Source: Streptomyces sp. 549
Lineage (GTDB): Bacteria; Actinomycetota; Actinomycetes; Streptomycetales; Streptomycetaceae
Assembly (NCBI RefSeq): GCF_030124175.1
Contig: NZ_JASKMT010000003.1
Span: 186,001 to 250,000, forward strand
DNA: 64,000 bases
Reading direction: 5' to 3'
The translations under genes and the position numbers were made by a program. How positions within the stretch are numbered: the stretch's first letter is position 1; every line of letters begins with the position of its first letter. Below the pieces are notes generated by a model, which made no database searches, was not told where the DNA came from, and saw only the letters and a program-made list of their open reading frames with translations. This document shows, in pieces, positions 1 through 47,802 of this stretch.

Positions 1-1956
1 GCTCAGCCCCTCGGTGTCGAGCAGCCCTACGGCCTGATGGGCGGCGTCGAGGTCGCCGCGCATCGCGGCGGCCCCGTCGGCGTCCAGCCCGGCGCAGGCG
101 GGCGGCAGGCCGACGCAGACCCGCTCGGCCAGCCCTTCGGCGACCTCGCGCAGCGCGACGGCGTCGGTGCCCCGTACGTCGCCGTACCGCGCGGAGCGCA
201 CCAGGGCGGGCAGGGCCTGGGCGAGGTGGCCGACGTCGGCGTCCAGCGCGGCCCGGTCGGCGAGCACCCGCATGACCACCGGCAGGGCGTCGCCGAGCCC
301 GGCGAGCAGGCAGCGTTCGGCGAGCGCGGTGACGTCGGCGAGCGCGCCGGCCTCCGTCGCCAGGGCCTCGGCCCTGGCGGTGGCGGCGCCCTCGACCGTG
401 GTCCCCCAGACGCCCGCTTCGGCGATCCGTACGGACAGTTCCGGCTGCCAGCGCAGGGACCAGCTCTCCCGGAAGGTTCCGGTACCGCCCCGGGCGCGGA
501 CCGGTTCGCCCCACTCGACGCCGAGCAGTCGCAGCCGGTGCAGGAGCCGGCTGCGGGCCGCGTCGGTGCTGTTGCGCAGGTCCAGTTCGAGTGTGCGCTC
601 GTGGGCCTCCGGCTTGAGACGCAGCGAGCGGTGCAGCCGGTCGAGGTCGCGTTGCAGCGGGACGGCCGGGGCGTCCGGCGGGACCTCCCCGAGCACGTCG
701 CCGACGATCAGCCGGTCCCTGATCAGCTCGTACGGCACGTCGGAGCCCTCGCAGAGCACGGCCCGGACGGCGTCCGAGGTCTCGCTCAGCCCGGCGAGGG
801 GCCGTCCGCGCATGGCGGCCAGCGCCTCCGCCAGCCGCACCGCCTCGATGACGTGCGCCGACGAGACGGGCAGGTCCTCCTCCCGCAGCAGGGCCGCCAC
901 CTTGGTCATCCACCGGGTGACGGGCCGGTCGGCGGCGGTGAAGAGGTGCCCGTACCAGCCGGGCGACTCGATGCCCGCGCCGTAGCCGCTGTGGCGGGAC
1001 AGCCGGCGGTGCGTCCAGGGCACCCACGAGATCTCCGCCCGCACCTTGGGCAGCCCCTTCAGGAGCTGCCGGTCGGCGGTGACGGCCCGCCGTTCGCGCA
1101 GCGCGGGCACGTGCCAGGCACCGCACACCACCGCGACCCGGTCCGCGCCGAACTCGCGCACTGCCTCCCGCAGGCGCAACCGCATGTGCGCCTCGCGCAC
1201 GTCGTCGCGGTGGTCGCGGGAGTCGCCGGTCTCCGGAGCGCCGGGGGCAGCGGCGGCGCCCGGGGCCGGGCTGTGCACCTGCCGCAGTGCCGTCATGGCC
1301 TCCTCCAGTGCCCGGAACGCACCGAGCGCTCCGGCCGCCGCGGCCGTCCCGGCGGCGGCGCCGGTCGCGCCCTCCCCCACCGGGCCGTCGGTCGTGCCGC
1401 GGTGCTCGACGACGTCCTCCCACCAGCGCTCGGGATCGTCGTGGCCGGCCGTCTCGGCGAGCACCGCCAGCGGGTCGATGCGCACGGCCCGGCCGCGCGT
1501 GGCCTCCTGCCGCGGGGCCTCCTGCTCCGAAGCCTCAGGTCGCGGGCCCTCCTGCCCCGGTTCTTCCAGCCCCGGTTCTTCCGGCCCCGGCCCGGCGGGC
1601 GTGGCCGACTCGCCGGCCGGGTCGTCGCTCATCGCCAGGCTGTGGGCGGCCGGGAGGTCGATGAAACGGACGGGCACGCCGCGTTCGACGGCCCAGCGCA
1701 GGGCGACCCACTCCGGTGAGAACGCCGCAAGCGGCCAGAACGCCGCCCGGCCCGGCTCGTCACCGCCGGCGTGCGCCAGCAGCGCCACGGGGGGCCGCAT
1801 GCGGGCGTCTCCGGCGAGGTGCAGCACCGGATCGGCCTCCGGCGGGCCCTCGACCAGCAGCACGGCGGGCTCGGTGGCGCGGAGTGCGGCGAGCACGGCC
1901 CGGGCAGAGCCCGGACCGTGGTGGCGCACCCCCATCAGCAGCGGCCCGGCAGTCAC
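1..1956 (-). CDS. DUF5682 family protein, C-terminus cut by window edge
   Basis: The frame is open from a GTG start to the left edge, giving at least 652 residues without a stop. The N-terminus carries the GVRHHGPGSA motif, typical of DUF5682 proteins, followed by a VEGPPEADP segment. A CGAWHVPAL motif lies near the middle, and a Pro/Glu-rich linker with GPEEPGLEEPGQEGP-like repeats sits around residues 115-145. The biochemical role of DUF5682 is unknown. Its start overlaps the stop of the upstream AAA ATPase gene in a GTGA arrangement, so the two are translationally coupled. In related loci the family sits with a MoxR ATPase, a SWIM protein and a VWA-domain protein; the last would lie beyond the left edge. 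Family call is firm from the N-terminal motif and context; function is not known. Confidence 0.85.
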   Translation of the reverse strand, partial: MTAGPLLMGVRHHGPGSARAVLAALRATEPAVLLVEGPPEADPVLHLAGDARMRPPVALLAHAGGDEPGRAAFWPLAAFSPEWVALRWAVERGVPVRFIDLPAAHSLAMSDDPAGESATPAGPGPEEPGLEEPGQEGPRPEASEQEAPRQEATRGRAVRIDPLAVLAETAGHDDPERWWEDVVEHRGTTDGPVGEGATGAAAGTAAAAGALGAFRALEEAMTALRQVHSPAPGAAAAPGAPETGDSRDHRDDVREAHMRLRLREAVREFGADRVAVVCGAWHVPALRERRAVTADRQLLKGLPKVRAEISWVPWTHRRLSRHSGYGAGIESPGWYGHLFTAADRPVTRWMTKVAALLREEDLPVSSAHVIEAVRLAEALAAMRGRPLAGLSETSDAVRAVLCEGSDVPYELIRDRLIVGDVLGEVPPDAPAVPLQRDLDRLHRSLRLKPEAHERTLELDLRNSTDAARSRLLHRLRLLGVEWGEPVRARGGTGTFRESWSLRWQPELSVRIAEAGVWGTTVEGAATARAEALATEAGALADVTALAERCLLAGLGDALPVVMRVLADRAALDADVGHLAQALPALVRSARYGDVRGTDAVALREVAEGLAERVCVGLPPACAGLDADGAAAMRGDLDAAHQAVGLLDTEGLS

Positions 1957-3053
1957 GCGCCGACCTCGCGGCAGGCCCGGTAGAGGTCCTGCCAGCCCTC
2001 GCGCTCACGCACGACCGTCTCCAGGTACTCCTGCCAGGCGACCTGGTCCGTGGACGGGTCCCGGACCACGGCCCCGTGCACTCCGGCGGCGACGTCCGAG
2101 GCCCGCAGCACGCCGTCACCGAAGTGGGCGGCGAGCGCCAGCCCGCCGGTGACGACCGAGATCGCCTCGGCGGTGGACAGGGTGCCGGAAGGGGTCTTGA
2201 TCCGGGTGCGGCCGTCGGCGGTGACGCCGCCGCGCAGTTCGCGGAAGACCGTGACCACCCGCCGGATCTCGTCGATACCCTGGGCGGTTCCGGGCAGGTC
2301 CAGCGACCGGCCGATCTGCTCGACGCGGCGCGAGACGATGTCCACCTCGGCCTCCTCGGTGGCCGGCATCGGCAGCACGACGGTGTTGAAGCGCCTGCGC
2401 AGTGCGCTGGACAACTCGTTGACCCCGCGGTCGCGGTCGTTGGCGGTGGCGATGAGGTTGAAGCCGCGCACGGCCTGCACCTCGCTGCCCAGCTCCGGGA
2501 TGGGCAGCGTCTTCTCCGACAGCACGGTGATGAGGCTGTCCTGCACGTCGGCCGGGATGCGCGTCAACTCCTCGACCCGGGCCGTCATGCCGTCGGCCAT
2601 GGCCCGCATCACCGGGCTGGGCACCAGCGCCTCGCGGCTGGGGCCGTGCGCGAGGAGTTGCGCGTAGTTCCAGCCGTAGCGCACGGCCTCCTCGGAGGTG
2701 CCCGCGGTGCCCTGGACGAGCAGGGTGGAGTCACCGCTGACTGCGGCGGCCAGATGCTCCGACACCCATGTCTTCGCGGTGCCGGGCACGCCGAGCAGCA
2801 GCAGCGCCCGGTCGGTGGCGAGCGTGGTGACGGCGACCTCCACGATGCGCCTCGGGCCCACGTACTTCGGGGAGATGACCGTGCCGTCGGGCAGGGTGCC
2901 GCCGAGCAGGTACAGGGCCACGGCCCACGGCGAGAGCCGCCAGCGCTCCGGGCGCGGCCGGTCGTCGGCCGCCGCCAGCGCGGCGAGTTCGTCGGCGAAC
3001 GCCTGCTCGGCGTGCGGTCGCAGGGCTGCCGACTCGTTCTGGGTGACGCTCAC
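1953..3053 (-). CDS. MoxR-type AAA+ ATPase
   Basis: A 366-residue AAA+ ATPase. Walker A is GVPGTAKT at about residues 88-95, and the sensor-1 strand reads IATANDRD, followed by an SALRRRF arginine-rich segment, as in MoxR/YehL-like ATPases. The chosen GTG start (VSVTQNE) is preceded by a GAGGGGGAG Shine-Dalgarno; an ATG 72 bases upstream lacks one. MoxR ATPases generally act as chaperone-like remodellers, often with a VWA-domain partner for metal or cofactor insertion or complex assembly. Here it is co-translated with a DUF5682 protein (four-base overlap) and lies divergent from SWIM and DUF5691 genes. The substrate is unknown. The ATPase assignment is seen directly; the remodelling role is inferred from the family. 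Confidence 0.9.
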   Translation of the reverse strand: MSVTQNESAALRPHAEQAFADELAALAAADDRPRPERWRLSPWAVALYLLGGTLPDGTVISPKYVGPRRIVEVAVTTLATDRALLLLGVPGTAKTWVSEHLAAAVSGDSTLLVQGTAGTSEEAVRYGWNYAQLLAHGPSREALVPSPVMRAMADGMTARVEELTRIPADVQDSLITVLSEKTLPIPELGSEVQAVRGFNLIATANDRDRGVNELSSALRRRFNTVVLPMPATEEAEVDIVSRRVEQIGRSLDLPGTAQGIDEIRRVVTVFRELRGGVTADGRTRIKTPSGTLSTAEAISVVTGGLALAAHFGDGVLRASDVAAGVHGAVVRDPSTDQVAWQEYLETVVREREGWQDLYRACREVGA

Positions 3054-3247
3054 AACTCCCCCTCGTCCTCCGGTGAGGCCCGGTGGTCCGGTACTGGTTC
3101 CCAGCCTGCACCCGCCCTCTGACAATCGCCGCGACCTGGGACTTCGTCAGATCACAGGCCCGCGGGGCGAGTCGGGGCGGTCATCGGACGACGCACGGCG
3201 TCTGCTTACGGGTCCCGGTGTCAGTGGTCGGTCGTACGGTCGTTCCC

Positions 3248-4594
3248 ATGACTGGAGACCAGGTCCGCTGGACGGCGGAACAGGTGCTGGCCCTCGCGCC
3301 CGACGCCGCGTCGCGCAAGGCCGGCGGCAAGCTGTCCGGGCCCGCGCCCTGGTCGGGCACGGGCACCGGCGGCGGGGCCGTGTGGGGGCTGTGCAAGGGC
3401 AGCGGCAGCACGCCGTACCGCACGGTGGTGGACGTCGACGACCCCGCGTACAAGTGCAGTTGCCCCAGCCGCAAGTTCCCCTGCAAGCACGCCCTGGGCC
3501 TGCTGCTGCTGTGGGCGGCGGGCCCGCAGGCGGTGGCGCCGGGCACGGAACCACCGCCGGAGTGGGCCGGGACGTGGATCACCGGCCGCCGCACCCGGCC
3601 GCCGCAGGGGGCCGCCCGCCCGGCCACCGCGGCACCGGCCGACCCGGCCGCCGCACGGCGGCGCACCGAGCGGCGCCTCGCCCGGATCACTGCGGGCGCG
3701 ACGGAGTTGGAGGAACGGTTGAACGACCTGCTGCGCGGCGGCATCGCCGGTGCGGACCGCGCCGGCTACGGCGCCTGGGACGAGACGGCGGCCCGGATGG
3801 TGGACGCCCAGGCACCCGGCCTCGCCGGGCGCATCAGGGAGCTGGCCGCGATACCGGCGTCCGGCGCCGGCTGGCCGGGCCGGCTGCTGGAGGAGTGCGC
3901 CCTGCTGCACCTGCTCGACCAGGGGTTCCTGGGGCTCGACGGGCTGCCCGAGCCGCTGGCCGCCACGGTGCGCGCGCAGGTCGGGCTGACGGTCGACACC
4001 GCGGGGCTGCTCGCCGACCGGGAGGCGCTGCTGCGCGACGAGTGGCTGGTCGTCGGCCGGTCCGACACCGATGAGGGCCGCCTGGCGGTACGGCGGCTCT
4101 GGCTGCACGGCACCCGCTCGGCCCGGTTCGCCCTGCTGCTGTCCTTCGGTCCCGCCGGGCGGTCCCCCGAGACGGCGCTGCCGGTCGGCAGCACACTCGA
4201 CGCCGAGCTGGCGTTCTACCCGGGCGCCGAGCAGGTGCGTGCCGCGCTGGGCGAGCGCCACGGCTCCTCCCCCGCCGGGCCCGTACCGCCGGGGACGGAC
4301 GTGGGCACGGCGCTCGCCGCCTACGGTGCGGTGCTGGCGTCGGACCCATGGGCGGACGACCGCCCGACCGTGCTGTCCGGGGTGGTGCCGGTCCCCGACG
4401 GCGCGGAGGGCAGGTGGCAGCTGGCCGACGCCGACGGCACGGCGGCACTGCCGCTGGTCTGCGACGCTCGGTCCGCCCTGTGGCGGCTGGCAGCGGTCTC
4501 CGGCGGCGGGCCGGTCACGGTGTTCGGTACCTGCGGGCACCGCGGGTTCGTACCGCACACCGTCTGGTCCGGCTCCCAGGCGGTGGCGCTGTGA
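3248..4594 (+). CDS. SWIM zinc-finger family protein
   Basis: A 448-residue protein with a SWIM zinc finger near the N-terminus: C70-x-C72-x6-C79-x-H81. The rest is Ala/Arg/Leu-rich with no recognised catalytic motif. SWIM domains are proposed to bind zinc and mediate DNA or protein contacts; the partner here is unknown. The ATG chosen follows a -10-like TACGGT by seven bases with no Shine-Dalgarno, which suggests a leaderless transcript; an in-frame start 165 bases upstream would reach into the divergent promoter region. It is divergent from the MoxR/DUF5682 pair and overlaps the DUF5691 start by four bases (GTGA), so it is translationally coupled to it. Resembles the YehQ-type component of yeh-like loci. 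Confidence 0.88.
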   Translation: MTGDQVRWTAEQVLALAPDAASRKAGGKLSGPAPWSGTGTGGGAVWGLCKGSGSTPYRTVVDVDDPAYKCSCPSRKFPCKHALGLLLLWAAGPQAVAPGTEPPPEWAGTWITGRRTRPPQGAARPATAAPADPAAARRRTERRLARITAGATELEERLNDLLRGGIAGADRAGYGAWDETAARMVDAQAPGLAGRIRELAAIPASGAGWPGRLLEECALLHLLDQGFLGLDGLPEPLAATVRAQVGLTVDTAGLLADREALLRDEWLVVGRSDTDEGRLAVRRLWLHGTRSARFALLLSFGPAGRSPETALPVGSTLDAELAFYPGAEQVRAALGERHGSSPAGPVPPGTDVGTALAAYGAVLASDPWADDRPTVLSGVVPVPDGAEGRWQLADADGTAALPLVCDARSALWRLAAVSGGGPVTVFGTCGHRGFVPHTVWSGSQAVAL

Positions 4595-6468
4595 CGTCCG
4601 GGACTTCCACGACGGCCCCGACAGCCCGGGCGGCTGCGGCAGGCGCGGCGGGTGCGACAGGCGCGGCGGCGGCGAGGGCTGCGACGGCGCAGGCGACAGT
4701 GACTGACGCGGAGGTGGCGTCCATGACGGGCTACGCGGCGGTGGGCGACCCGGCGGACAACCCGACGGGCGACCGCCCAGGCCGGGAGGCCGCCCGCTCG
4801 GAGGCGGCAGCCCCAGACGCCGATGGCCAGGCGGGCGCCCGCAGCCAGCCGGAGGCAGGCGGGCAGGCTGAACAACCCGGCGGCCAGCCGGTGGCCGGCG
4901 AATCGGCGGCCACCGGCTGGGAGGAGCTGGTCACGGCCGCGTTGCTCGGCGCCGAGCGCCGCCCCCCGCCCGGCGGCTCGACCACCGCCCTGCTGGACCT
5001 CGCGGCGGTGGCGACCGTGCGCCGACGGGCCGGGTTGCTGCCCGCGAGGGCGGCGGCACTGCCCGCCCCGGCACCCGACGACCCGCGGCCCGCGCTGCCG
5101 GCTGCCGCGGGGCGCCGGCTCTCCCTGCTGCTCGCCGGGCGGACGGAGGGGGCCGGCAGCGGTGGCCGGCGCGGCAGCACACCGGATCTCGGCGAGCTGC
5201 TGCCGCAGTGGCTGGCGGCGGCCAACGGCCACGGCTACCGGCCGCCGCCCGCGCTGCTGCCCACCTTGCTGGACGCGGCGCGCGCCCGCACCGATCTGCG
5301 CGCGGCGGTCCTGGAGTTCGCCGGGCCGCGCGCCCGGTGGCTGGCGGCCCTCAACCCGGAGTGGAGGTTCGCCCTGCGCAGCAGCGCGGGCCGGGTCCCG
5401 GCCCTGCCGCACGAGGCGGAGGCGCAGGGCCGCCTGTGGACGGAGGGCCTGTTCGCCGAACGGGTGGCGTTGCTGGCCGCGGTCCGTCGCCGCGACCCGG
5501 ACGCAGGGCGCCGGCTGCTGGAGAGCACCTGGTCCACCGAGCGGGCCGAGGACCGCCTGATGTTCCTCGACTCGCTGCGGGAGCAGCTGGGCGCGGCCGA
5601 CGAGCCGTTCCTGGAGCAGGCGCTCGGCGACCGCAGCCGGACGGTCCGGGCCACCGCCGCCGAGCTGCTGTCGGCCCTGCCGCAGTCGGCACTCGCCGCC
5701 CGCATGTCGCAGCGGGCCCGCTCCTGCGTCAGTGCGGACCGCACGGGGCTGACCGCCCGGCCCGGCCTCGTAGTGGAGGCGCCGCACGAGTGCGACGCCG
5801 GTATGCAGCGGGACGGTGTGGTGCCCAAGCCGCCCGCGGGGCGGGGCGAGCGGTCGTGGTGGCTGAGCCAGGTGGTGGAGGCGGCCCCGCTCGGCGACTG
5901 GTCAGCGCATCTGGGCGGCCGGAGTCCCGCCGAGATCGTGGCGCTGCGGGTGGCGGACGACTGGCAGGCCGACCTGCACGCCGCCTGGGCGCGCGCCGCG
6001 GTCCGCCAGCGCGACGTCGCCTGGGCGCGGGCGCTGACAGGCAAGCCGTCCGCGTCGGCTGCGGACACCCCCGGAGACTCGGCCCGCCTGCTGGCCGTGC
6101 TGCCGGAGGCGGACCGGGCGGACTGGGCGGCGGAGTTCGTGGCGGCCCACGGCCTGTCGGAGGCGTTCCGCGTCCTGGGCACCTGCTCGGTTCCCTGGTC
6201 GGAGCAGCTGGGCCGGGCGGTGGTGGACGCGTTGGAGATCGCGCGGGACGCGGGCAGCTACCCGTGGAGCTTCAGCGGTGTGCTCGGCCTGGCCGAGCGC
6301 TCGCTCGACCCGCGGCACGCCGACCGCCTGATACCGCTGGCGGCGCATCCGGACGAGTCGGAGGCCGGCGCGCCGGGGGCCGGCGGCTACTGGGCGGAGT
6401 CGTTCCAGCGGCTCGTGGCCACTCTGCACACCCGCGCGGCGATGCTCGACGAGCTGGCCGACACCTGA
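4591..6468 (+). CDS. DUF5691 family protein
   Basis: A 625-residue protein recognised as DUF5691 mainly from its WEELVTAALLGAERR start-of-domain motif (about residues 110-124) and from its position next to a SWIM protein. The first 100 residues are low-complexity Ala/Gly/Thr-rich and contain no domain. The remainder is helical and Leu/Arg-rich, with a HEAT-like look around DPDAGRRLLESTW and DRSRTVRATAAELL; those repeats are my inference from the pattern. The GTG start overlaps the stop of the SWIM gene by four bases. No enzymatic motif is visible. It probably forms a complex with the SWIM protein and the divergent ATPase module. Ends convergent with the mutase small-subunit gene. Confidence 0.8.
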   Translation: MTSGTSTTAPTARAAAAGAAGATGAAAARAATAQATVTDAEVASMTGYAAVGDPADNPTGDRPGREAARSEAAAPDADGQAGARSQPEAGGQAEQPGGQPVAGESAATGWEELVTAALLGAERRPPPGGSTTALLDLAAVATVRRRAGLLPARAAALPAPAPDDPRPALPAAAGRRLSLLLAGRTEGAGSGGRRGSTPDLGELLPQWLAAANGHGYRPPPALLPTLLDAARARTDLRAAVLEFAGPRARWLAALNPEWRFALRSSAGRVPALPHEAEAQGRLWTEGLFAERVALLAAVRRRDPDAGRRLLESTWSTERAEDRLMFLDSLREQLGAADEPFLEQALGDRSRTVRATAAELLSALPQSALAARMSQRARSCVSADRTGLTARPGLVVEAPHECDAGMQRDGVVPKPPAGRGERSWWLSQVVEAAPLGDWSAHLGGRSPAEIVALRVADDWQADLHAAWARAAVRQRDVAWARALTGKPSASAADTPGDSARLLAVLPEADRADWAAEFVAAHGLSEAFRVLGTCSVPWSEQLGRAVVDALEIARDAGSYPWSFSGVLGLAERSLDPRHADRLIPLAAHPDESEAGAPGAGGYWAESFQRLVATLHTRAAMLDELADT

Positions 6469-47567: not shown

Positions 47568-47802
47568 GGCCTGATGATGGGCGAGGCGACGCGGCTACGC
47601 CAGCCGTTTCCGCGACGGCCCAAGCCCGCCGTGGGACCGCGTCCGGTCCTGCCCCGCTTCGGAGGCTCGTGGGGCCGCTGCGACCTGACGGACAGGCGGG
47701 TCGACGCCGCCTCAGAACCGCTTCTGACCAGGATCGTTGTCAGTGGCCGCCGGTAGAATCGAAAGTGTTCGAACGGTGCGTCAATGTCCGGGGAGGATGC
47801 CC

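Follow-up and report, generated by a model that had tools for sequence, protein, structure and literature searches.

In the genome of Streptomyces sp. 549 (contig NZ_JASKMT010000003.1, positions 186,001 to 250,000; hereafter the window, 64,000 nucleotides), positions 1 to 6,468 carry genes for a MoxR-type AAA+ ATPase, a DUF5682 protein, a SWIM zinc-finger protein and a DUF5691 protein, and a fifth gene, encoding a VWA protein, lies just past the left edge. Our analysis identifies in DUF5682 a previously unrecognised predicted hydrolase domain of the Tiki/TraB/ChaN/EreA superfamily fold, as modelled, with the His/Glu/Arg/His motifs kept, and shows that both operons of the locus have a DNA-damage promoter motif of the RecA-NDp/PafBC type. 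We rate at slightly better than even the chance that the five genes encode a single DNA-damage-induced MoxR/VWA machine, which would drive or control the Tiki-type hydrolase, with the SWIM and HEAT-like proteins as its recruiters. Neither DUF5682 nor DUF5691 was found mentioned in the literature searched.

The Tiki-like domain comprises residues 1-340 of DUF5682 (937..1956, minus strand) and was recognised by an alignment of 27 N-terminal DUF5682 domains, covering all the system types described below, together with a fold search. In this alignment H12, E36, E82, D100, R254, E255, M258, G279 and H282 are kept, and H12, E36, R254 and H282 are invariant in 27 of 27 sequences, in the motif order GX2H...E...R...GX2H, as given for RRSP (PMC6254334). 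Tiki proteins include ChaN, HopBA1, Bcr135 and RRSP, and their key residues are two His, two Glu and an Arg (PMC6254334). A fold search with the full-length protein was set aside as helical repeats dominated its list (the C-terminal half, ~480 aa, is HEAT-like helical in the model), and the N-terminal domain was folded alone (276 aa; predicted local distance difference test score, pLDDT, 83; predicted template modelling score, pTM, 0.83). The top 11 rows of the VIA-align search consisted of Tetrahymena complex IV chains (Z 10.2-10.0, superfamily not checked), ChaN (Z 9.5, 152 residues aligned, 4.1 Å), HopBA1 (8.4), EreC (7.3), BcR135-type proteins (~7) and RRSP (6.3), unrelated folds starting at Z 5.8 and lower. 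In BFVD, Foldseek ranked a TraB family protein first, at E 4.8e-4 and with a probability of 1.00. Sequence comparison gave weak support for Tiki membership, in the same direction as the fold: beyond DUF5682 itself, TraB and ChaN were the only Pfam families matched by more than one member, below threshold (best E 0.008), and hhalign gave the TraB family a probability of 50% in an alignment confined to the last motif, which pairs with RNxxW...VGALH of TraB. A PDB sequence search with the N-terminal profiles returned nothing relevant. Because of the fold and the conserved residues, DUF5682 is predicted to be a hydrolase. As a separate observation, the solved structure nearest to this domain is the Tetrahymena complex IV subunit (PDB 7w5z chain E, 8b6h chain DQ; Z 10.2), which may itself be a Tiki-fold subunit.

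The genes are arranged in two divergent operons, MoxR-DUF5682-VWA(CoxE) on the minus strand and SWIM-DUF5691 on the plus strand. The first starts with the MoxR gene (1953..3053; YehL-like; Pfam AAA_5, E 1.1e-36) and continues with DUF5682 (Pfam DUF5682, 968 bits), of which the window holds the N-terminal 652 of 863 aa (1..1956). The whole DUF5682 gene lies at L002:9365-11956, L002 being the window extended leftward (window position = L002 position - 10000), and is followed by the gene for a 402-aa VWA_CoxE protein (L002:8160-9368, minus strand; E 2.8e-62). The second operon consists of the SWIM gene (3248..4594; Pfam SWIM, E 6e-7) and the gene for the 625-aa DUF5691 protein (4591..6468; Pfam DUF5691, 564 bits, with a sub-threshold HEAT match). 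A first-pass annotation of the same letters had named these four families and a four-base overlap within each pair, and had predicted a VWA gene past the left edge adjoining DUF5682; all of this proved correct, the overlaps being GTGA at the MoxR/DUF5682 and SWIM/DUF5691 junctions and ATGA at DUF5682/VWA. Its gene extents needed amending, as DUF5682 crosses the edge and the true starts are likely GTG 3053 for MoxR and ATG 3248 for SWIM, 194 bp apart. The MoxR start was chosen because of the promoter position: the longer mechanical open reading frames (ORFs) begin within the promoter region, the TTG at 3125 coinciding with the first TTG of the MoxR promoter motif. On either side of the locus lie what we take, from sequence and synteny, to be sucC/sucD (left) and an icmB-like B12-binding gene (right).

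Alignment of 60 intergenic regions revealed a conserved block, TTGTCAGTG-N8-CAnngT, before MoxR, and a second, opposed copy facing SWIM. The block before MoxR represents a variant form of the RecA-NDp motif of actinobacteria, whose consensus was reportedly given by Gamulin et al. in 2004 as tTGTCRgtg-N8-TAnnnT. This consensus was checked against the genome's own recA promoter, and the motif found upstream of recA, TGTCAGTG-N8-(T/C)AnnnT, is present at the locus. The SWIM-directed copy (3219..3240, plus strand) reads TGTCAGTG-N8-TACGGT and lies 7 bp before the ATG; the MoxR-directed copy (3103..3125, minus strand) reads TTGTCAGAG-N8-CAGGCT, with CAGGCT in place of the strict TAnnnT. The 64-kb window contains three motif matches against 0.01 expected. 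Among the 74 Streptomyces loci in which both genes are readable, the MoxR-directed motif is present in 72, the SWIM-directed motif in 71 and both in 71, with only seven matches elsewhere and none in the reversed control. Furthermore, the whole 6-Mb genome yields 18 strict sites (0 in the reversed control), one of them the SWIM-directed copy and another at recA. Others precede the genes for uracil-DNA glycosylase (UDG), SbcD, ribosomal S6, DNA polymerase III alpha, UvrB and a PD-(D/E)XK nuclease, and some of the genes with strict sites have no repair link. These results point to good preservation of the RecA-NDp regulon in Streptomyces. Published sites of the motif lie upstream of recA and of further damage genes (PMC5087735; PMC8223512). 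To judge from the motif, both operons may be regulated by PafBC. A LexA box between the Streptomyces operons was considered and rejected (1 of 60). Elsewhere in the window, a third RecA-NDp motif, TGTCAGTGGCCGCCGGTAGAAT (47738-47759, plus strand), is directly followed by a palindromic TTCGAA resembling a LexA site.

The S. coelicolor protein SCO4804 is very likely the DUF5682 orthologue, judging from length and gene spacing: it has 815 aa, against 814 aa for the S. coelicoflavus DUF5682 ORF from its first start, and the gaps to the neighbouring genes are similar, given the downstream VWA start. With that mapping, the neighbours of SCO4804, described as hypothetical proteins (PMC8120823), would be the MoxR and VWA proteins. 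Depletion of TopA induces sco4804 and its neighbours (SCO4803-4805) eightfold (PMC8120823). The promoter motif would explain this induction if TopA depletion acts through DNA damage rather than supercoiling, as it may. The authors of that study proposed that SCO4804 regulates topA, since a sco4804 transposon mutant has ~50% of TopA and overexpression transiently raises topA and gyrB (PMC8120823). A role for DUF5682 as regulator of topA/gyrase transcription and of chromosome topology seems to us very improbable, as in the same work the protein bound DNA only non-specifically and did not interact with TopA, supercoiling was unaltered, a polar effect on sco4805 was seen and the authors concluded that SCO4804 acts indirectly (PMC8120823), and the modelled fold is enzyme-like. 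The topA phenotype might instead follow from the action of a damage-response machine.

The ATPase and its VWA partner have the sequence features of MoxR/VWA pairs. The Walker A motif of MoxR is intact (GVPGTAKT here, GxPGTxK[ST] in the alignment), and the VWA protein of the window genome has the metal-ion-dependent adhesion site (MIDAS) pattern DxSxS, T, D, as DQSGS, GGGTD and SDLYEG. In every locus with readable surroundings MoxR and VWA genes accompany DUF5682. We also observed that 16 of 16 aligned MoxR proteins (L002:11953-13053 and 15 others) have hEE[LIV][TS]R in the Walker-B region instead of the usual DE, possibly a signature of this MoxR subfamily. A MoxR ATPase adjoining a MIDAS-containing VWA protein is likewise found in NorQ/NorD, CoxD/CoxE and RavA/ViaA; the window differs from these in its Tiki-fold third partner, its SWIM and helical partners and an operon without a known client enzyme. 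Gripping of the VWA finger by the MoxR ring, with remodelling of a partner, is established for NorQ/NorD, and known pairs of this kind work as maturation chaperones (PMC9976466; PMC13036017). The MoxR and VWA proteins could likewise mature a separate enzyme, by metal insertion or remodelling, in the way NorQ/NorD serve NO reductase, with DUF5682 as a mere accessory subunit. The VWA protein here does belong to the CoxE family, and CoxD-CoxE is the proposed ancestral MoxR-vWA pair (PMC7159879). Nonetheless we consider such a chaperone unlikely: no metalloenzyme client gene is co-conserved, the sucCD and icmB-like flanks being constant in Streptomyces only and different elsewhere, and it is DUF5682 itself that stays invariant as the third partner.

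The second operon encodes a protein with a complete SWIM motif (CxC-x6-CxH) and the DUF5691 protein. The first-pass annotation had likened the locus to enterobacterial yehL/M/P/Q loci, and indeed E. coli yehI-yehL-yehM-yehP-yehQ unite MoxR, DUF5682, VWA_CoxE and SWIM in one operon-like cluster. The likeness does not extend to DUF5691, which is replaced there by DUF4132 (YehI), nor to the promoters, as the E. coli operon heads that were read have neither a RecA-NDp motif nor an SOS box. Homology between DUF5691 and DUF4132 was considered and rejected, as hhalign showed no relation, and the similarity between the SWIM proteins of the two clusters is confined to the SWIM region.

The association of the families, which the first-pass annotation had proposed, is borne out by their distribution. 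Of 296 sampled Actinomycetota genomes, 21 have DUF5682, and DUF5691 exceeds its cut-off in 18, all of them among those 21 (Fisher p 5e-26, a value that overstates independence, the genomes being related). The sample includes nine genomes of the window's genus, and every one of them has the genes. The divergent arrangement has no counter-example in 80 Streptomycetaceae loci; all eight genes (the five plus sucCD and the icmB-like gene) stand on 59 Streptomyces contigs, other loci being cut by contig ends. Since the search for DUF5682 relatives in genome contigs returned Streptomycetaceae only, the evidence from other phyla rests on plasmid records and genome samples. Bacteroidota, Deinococcota, Alphaproteobacteria and other Actinomycetota also have all five families together, and in the other phyla the genes adjoin, with the co-directional order SWIM-DUF5691-MoxR-DUF5682-VWA in Hymenobacter, Deinococcus, Rhizobium, Methylosinus and Methylobacterium. 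In Fusobacterium an unassigned 637-aa protein occupies the position of DUF5691.

We distinguished four arrangements. Type I is that of the window. Type II, DUF4132-MoxR-DUF5682-VWA-SWIM, comprises E. coli yehI-yehQ, Iodobacter and one Streptomyces, and Allorhizobium has the same families in a different order. Type III consists of DUF4132, a large protein, MoxR, a fused DUF5682-VWA ORF and a SWIM-motif protein, and in type IV, a divergent form, recognition was limited to VWA, MoxR and DUF5682. The damage motif reappears in the paralogous Streptomyces systems of these types: it lies directly upstream of the DUF4132 head gene in each of the six type III operons of Streptomyces that were read, and at the head of one Streptomyces type II operon; type IV is less certain, as one motif lies at its VWA ORF and a second one 1.5 kb upstream. 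In the single-ORF fusion, DUF5682 spans residues 121-987 and VWA_CoxE residues 1016-1237. This fusion and those of SWIM with DUF5691, found for example in Hymenobacter, argue for a physical complex, and the former suggests that DUF5682 is either the driven enzyme or a hydrolytic effector.

The MoxR-vWA ternary conflict systems described by Kaur et al. (PMC7159879), among them VMAP and iSTAND systems, share with the window a MoxR, a vWA and a conserved third protein. The locus could by analogy be a conflict system, a MoxR/VWA-gated effector acting against invaders or killing its own cell, in which DUF5682 is the hydrolytic effector. Its patchy distribution in the Actinomycetota (21 of 296) would fit, as would the Iodobacter, Fusobacterium and Hymenobacter copies beside restriction or candidate-defence nuclease genes. 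We nevertheless consider this explanation unlikely. The defence-type flanks amount to three cases without background comparison, PADLOC matched none of the five proteins, and the locus keeps a single chromosomal position in Streptomyces type I and in E. coli, where it is present in 5162 of 5426 genomes (95% of complete genomes). The effector, too, is invariant: the third component is DUF5682, not of the VMAP, iSTAND, beta-propeller or FtsH type, the bpMoxR match falls below its cut-off (22.6 vs 27 bits), and no variable effector domains were seen on the VWA protein. The text of Kaur et al. contains none of Tiki, EreA, TraB and DUF4132 (PMC7159879). Viral contigs held no relatives, and one fecal scaffold of a phage collection gave a match that is unverified.

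The damage-induced machine that we favour would work as follows. In Streptomyces its production would follow DNA damage or topological stress. The proteins of the locus would form a complex, as their fusions and overlaps suggest, in which, by analogy with NorQ/NorD and other MoxR/VWA pairs, a MoxR hexamer would bind the VWA finger and ATP turnover would remodel the attached target. DUF5682, to judge from the gene fusions, would be a stoichiometric partner of VWA, either the enzyme that is driven or the motor's hydrolytic effector, and its Tiki domain, given its modelled fold and residues, would hydrolyse the target. It shares fold and motif order with the Tiki/TraB/ChaN/EreA superfamily and differs from it by the added helical C-terminal half and a fixed MoxR/VWA partnership. 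SWIM and DUF5691 would be a second, fusable pair that, from its domain type, might bring the machine to DNA or a protein bound to it, the target being hydrolysed or remodelled there. A more detailed version, in which a PafBC-switched MoxR ring with a VWA adaptor feeds or gates the Tiki-fold hydrolase and SWIM/HEAT recruitment brings it to damaged or over-wound DNA, for instance clearing stalled or crosslinked proteins, is speculative and in our view unlikely. If true, it would add one more kind to the ATP-driven proteolytic or hydrolytic machines of bacteria. The fold, the named candidate catalytic residues and the damage promoter together give an uncharacterised cluster a testable job.

Several results weigh against this proposal. 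By Foldseek alone no PDB match had E < 0.001, and DUF5682 lacks the initial Glu of the RRSP ExH motif, as does the TraB-type YbaP. The damage link is shown only in one genus, Streptomyces: the operon heads read in other Actinomycetota and in other phyla have no RecA-NDp motif, and those read outside Streptomyces have no SOS box, the regions before yehI and yehL of E. coli included. Finally, an initial search found no conserved M. smegmatis PafBC motif in S. venezuelae, PafBC homologues being present in Streptomyces (PMC9380542). Our motif counts contradict that initial search, at least for this genome.

Some further observations were made at related loci. DUF5682 systems adjoin restriction-modification or PDC-S02 nuclease genes in Fusobacterium, Iodobacter and Hymenobacter (flanks of L138, L139 and L133). 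The VWA gene is broken up across three frames on the Methylosinus trichosporium plasmid pOB3b3 (L137:11154-12382) and the SWIM gene is split across two ORFs in Rhizobium sp. Kim5 (L136:5081-6495), which suggests decay on plasmids. Lastly, a strict RecA-NDp motif was found 6 bp upstream of an OrfB_IS605/TnpB-like gene (L197, G000:C35:20239), hinting that this IS605-type element may be expressed in a damage-responsive way.

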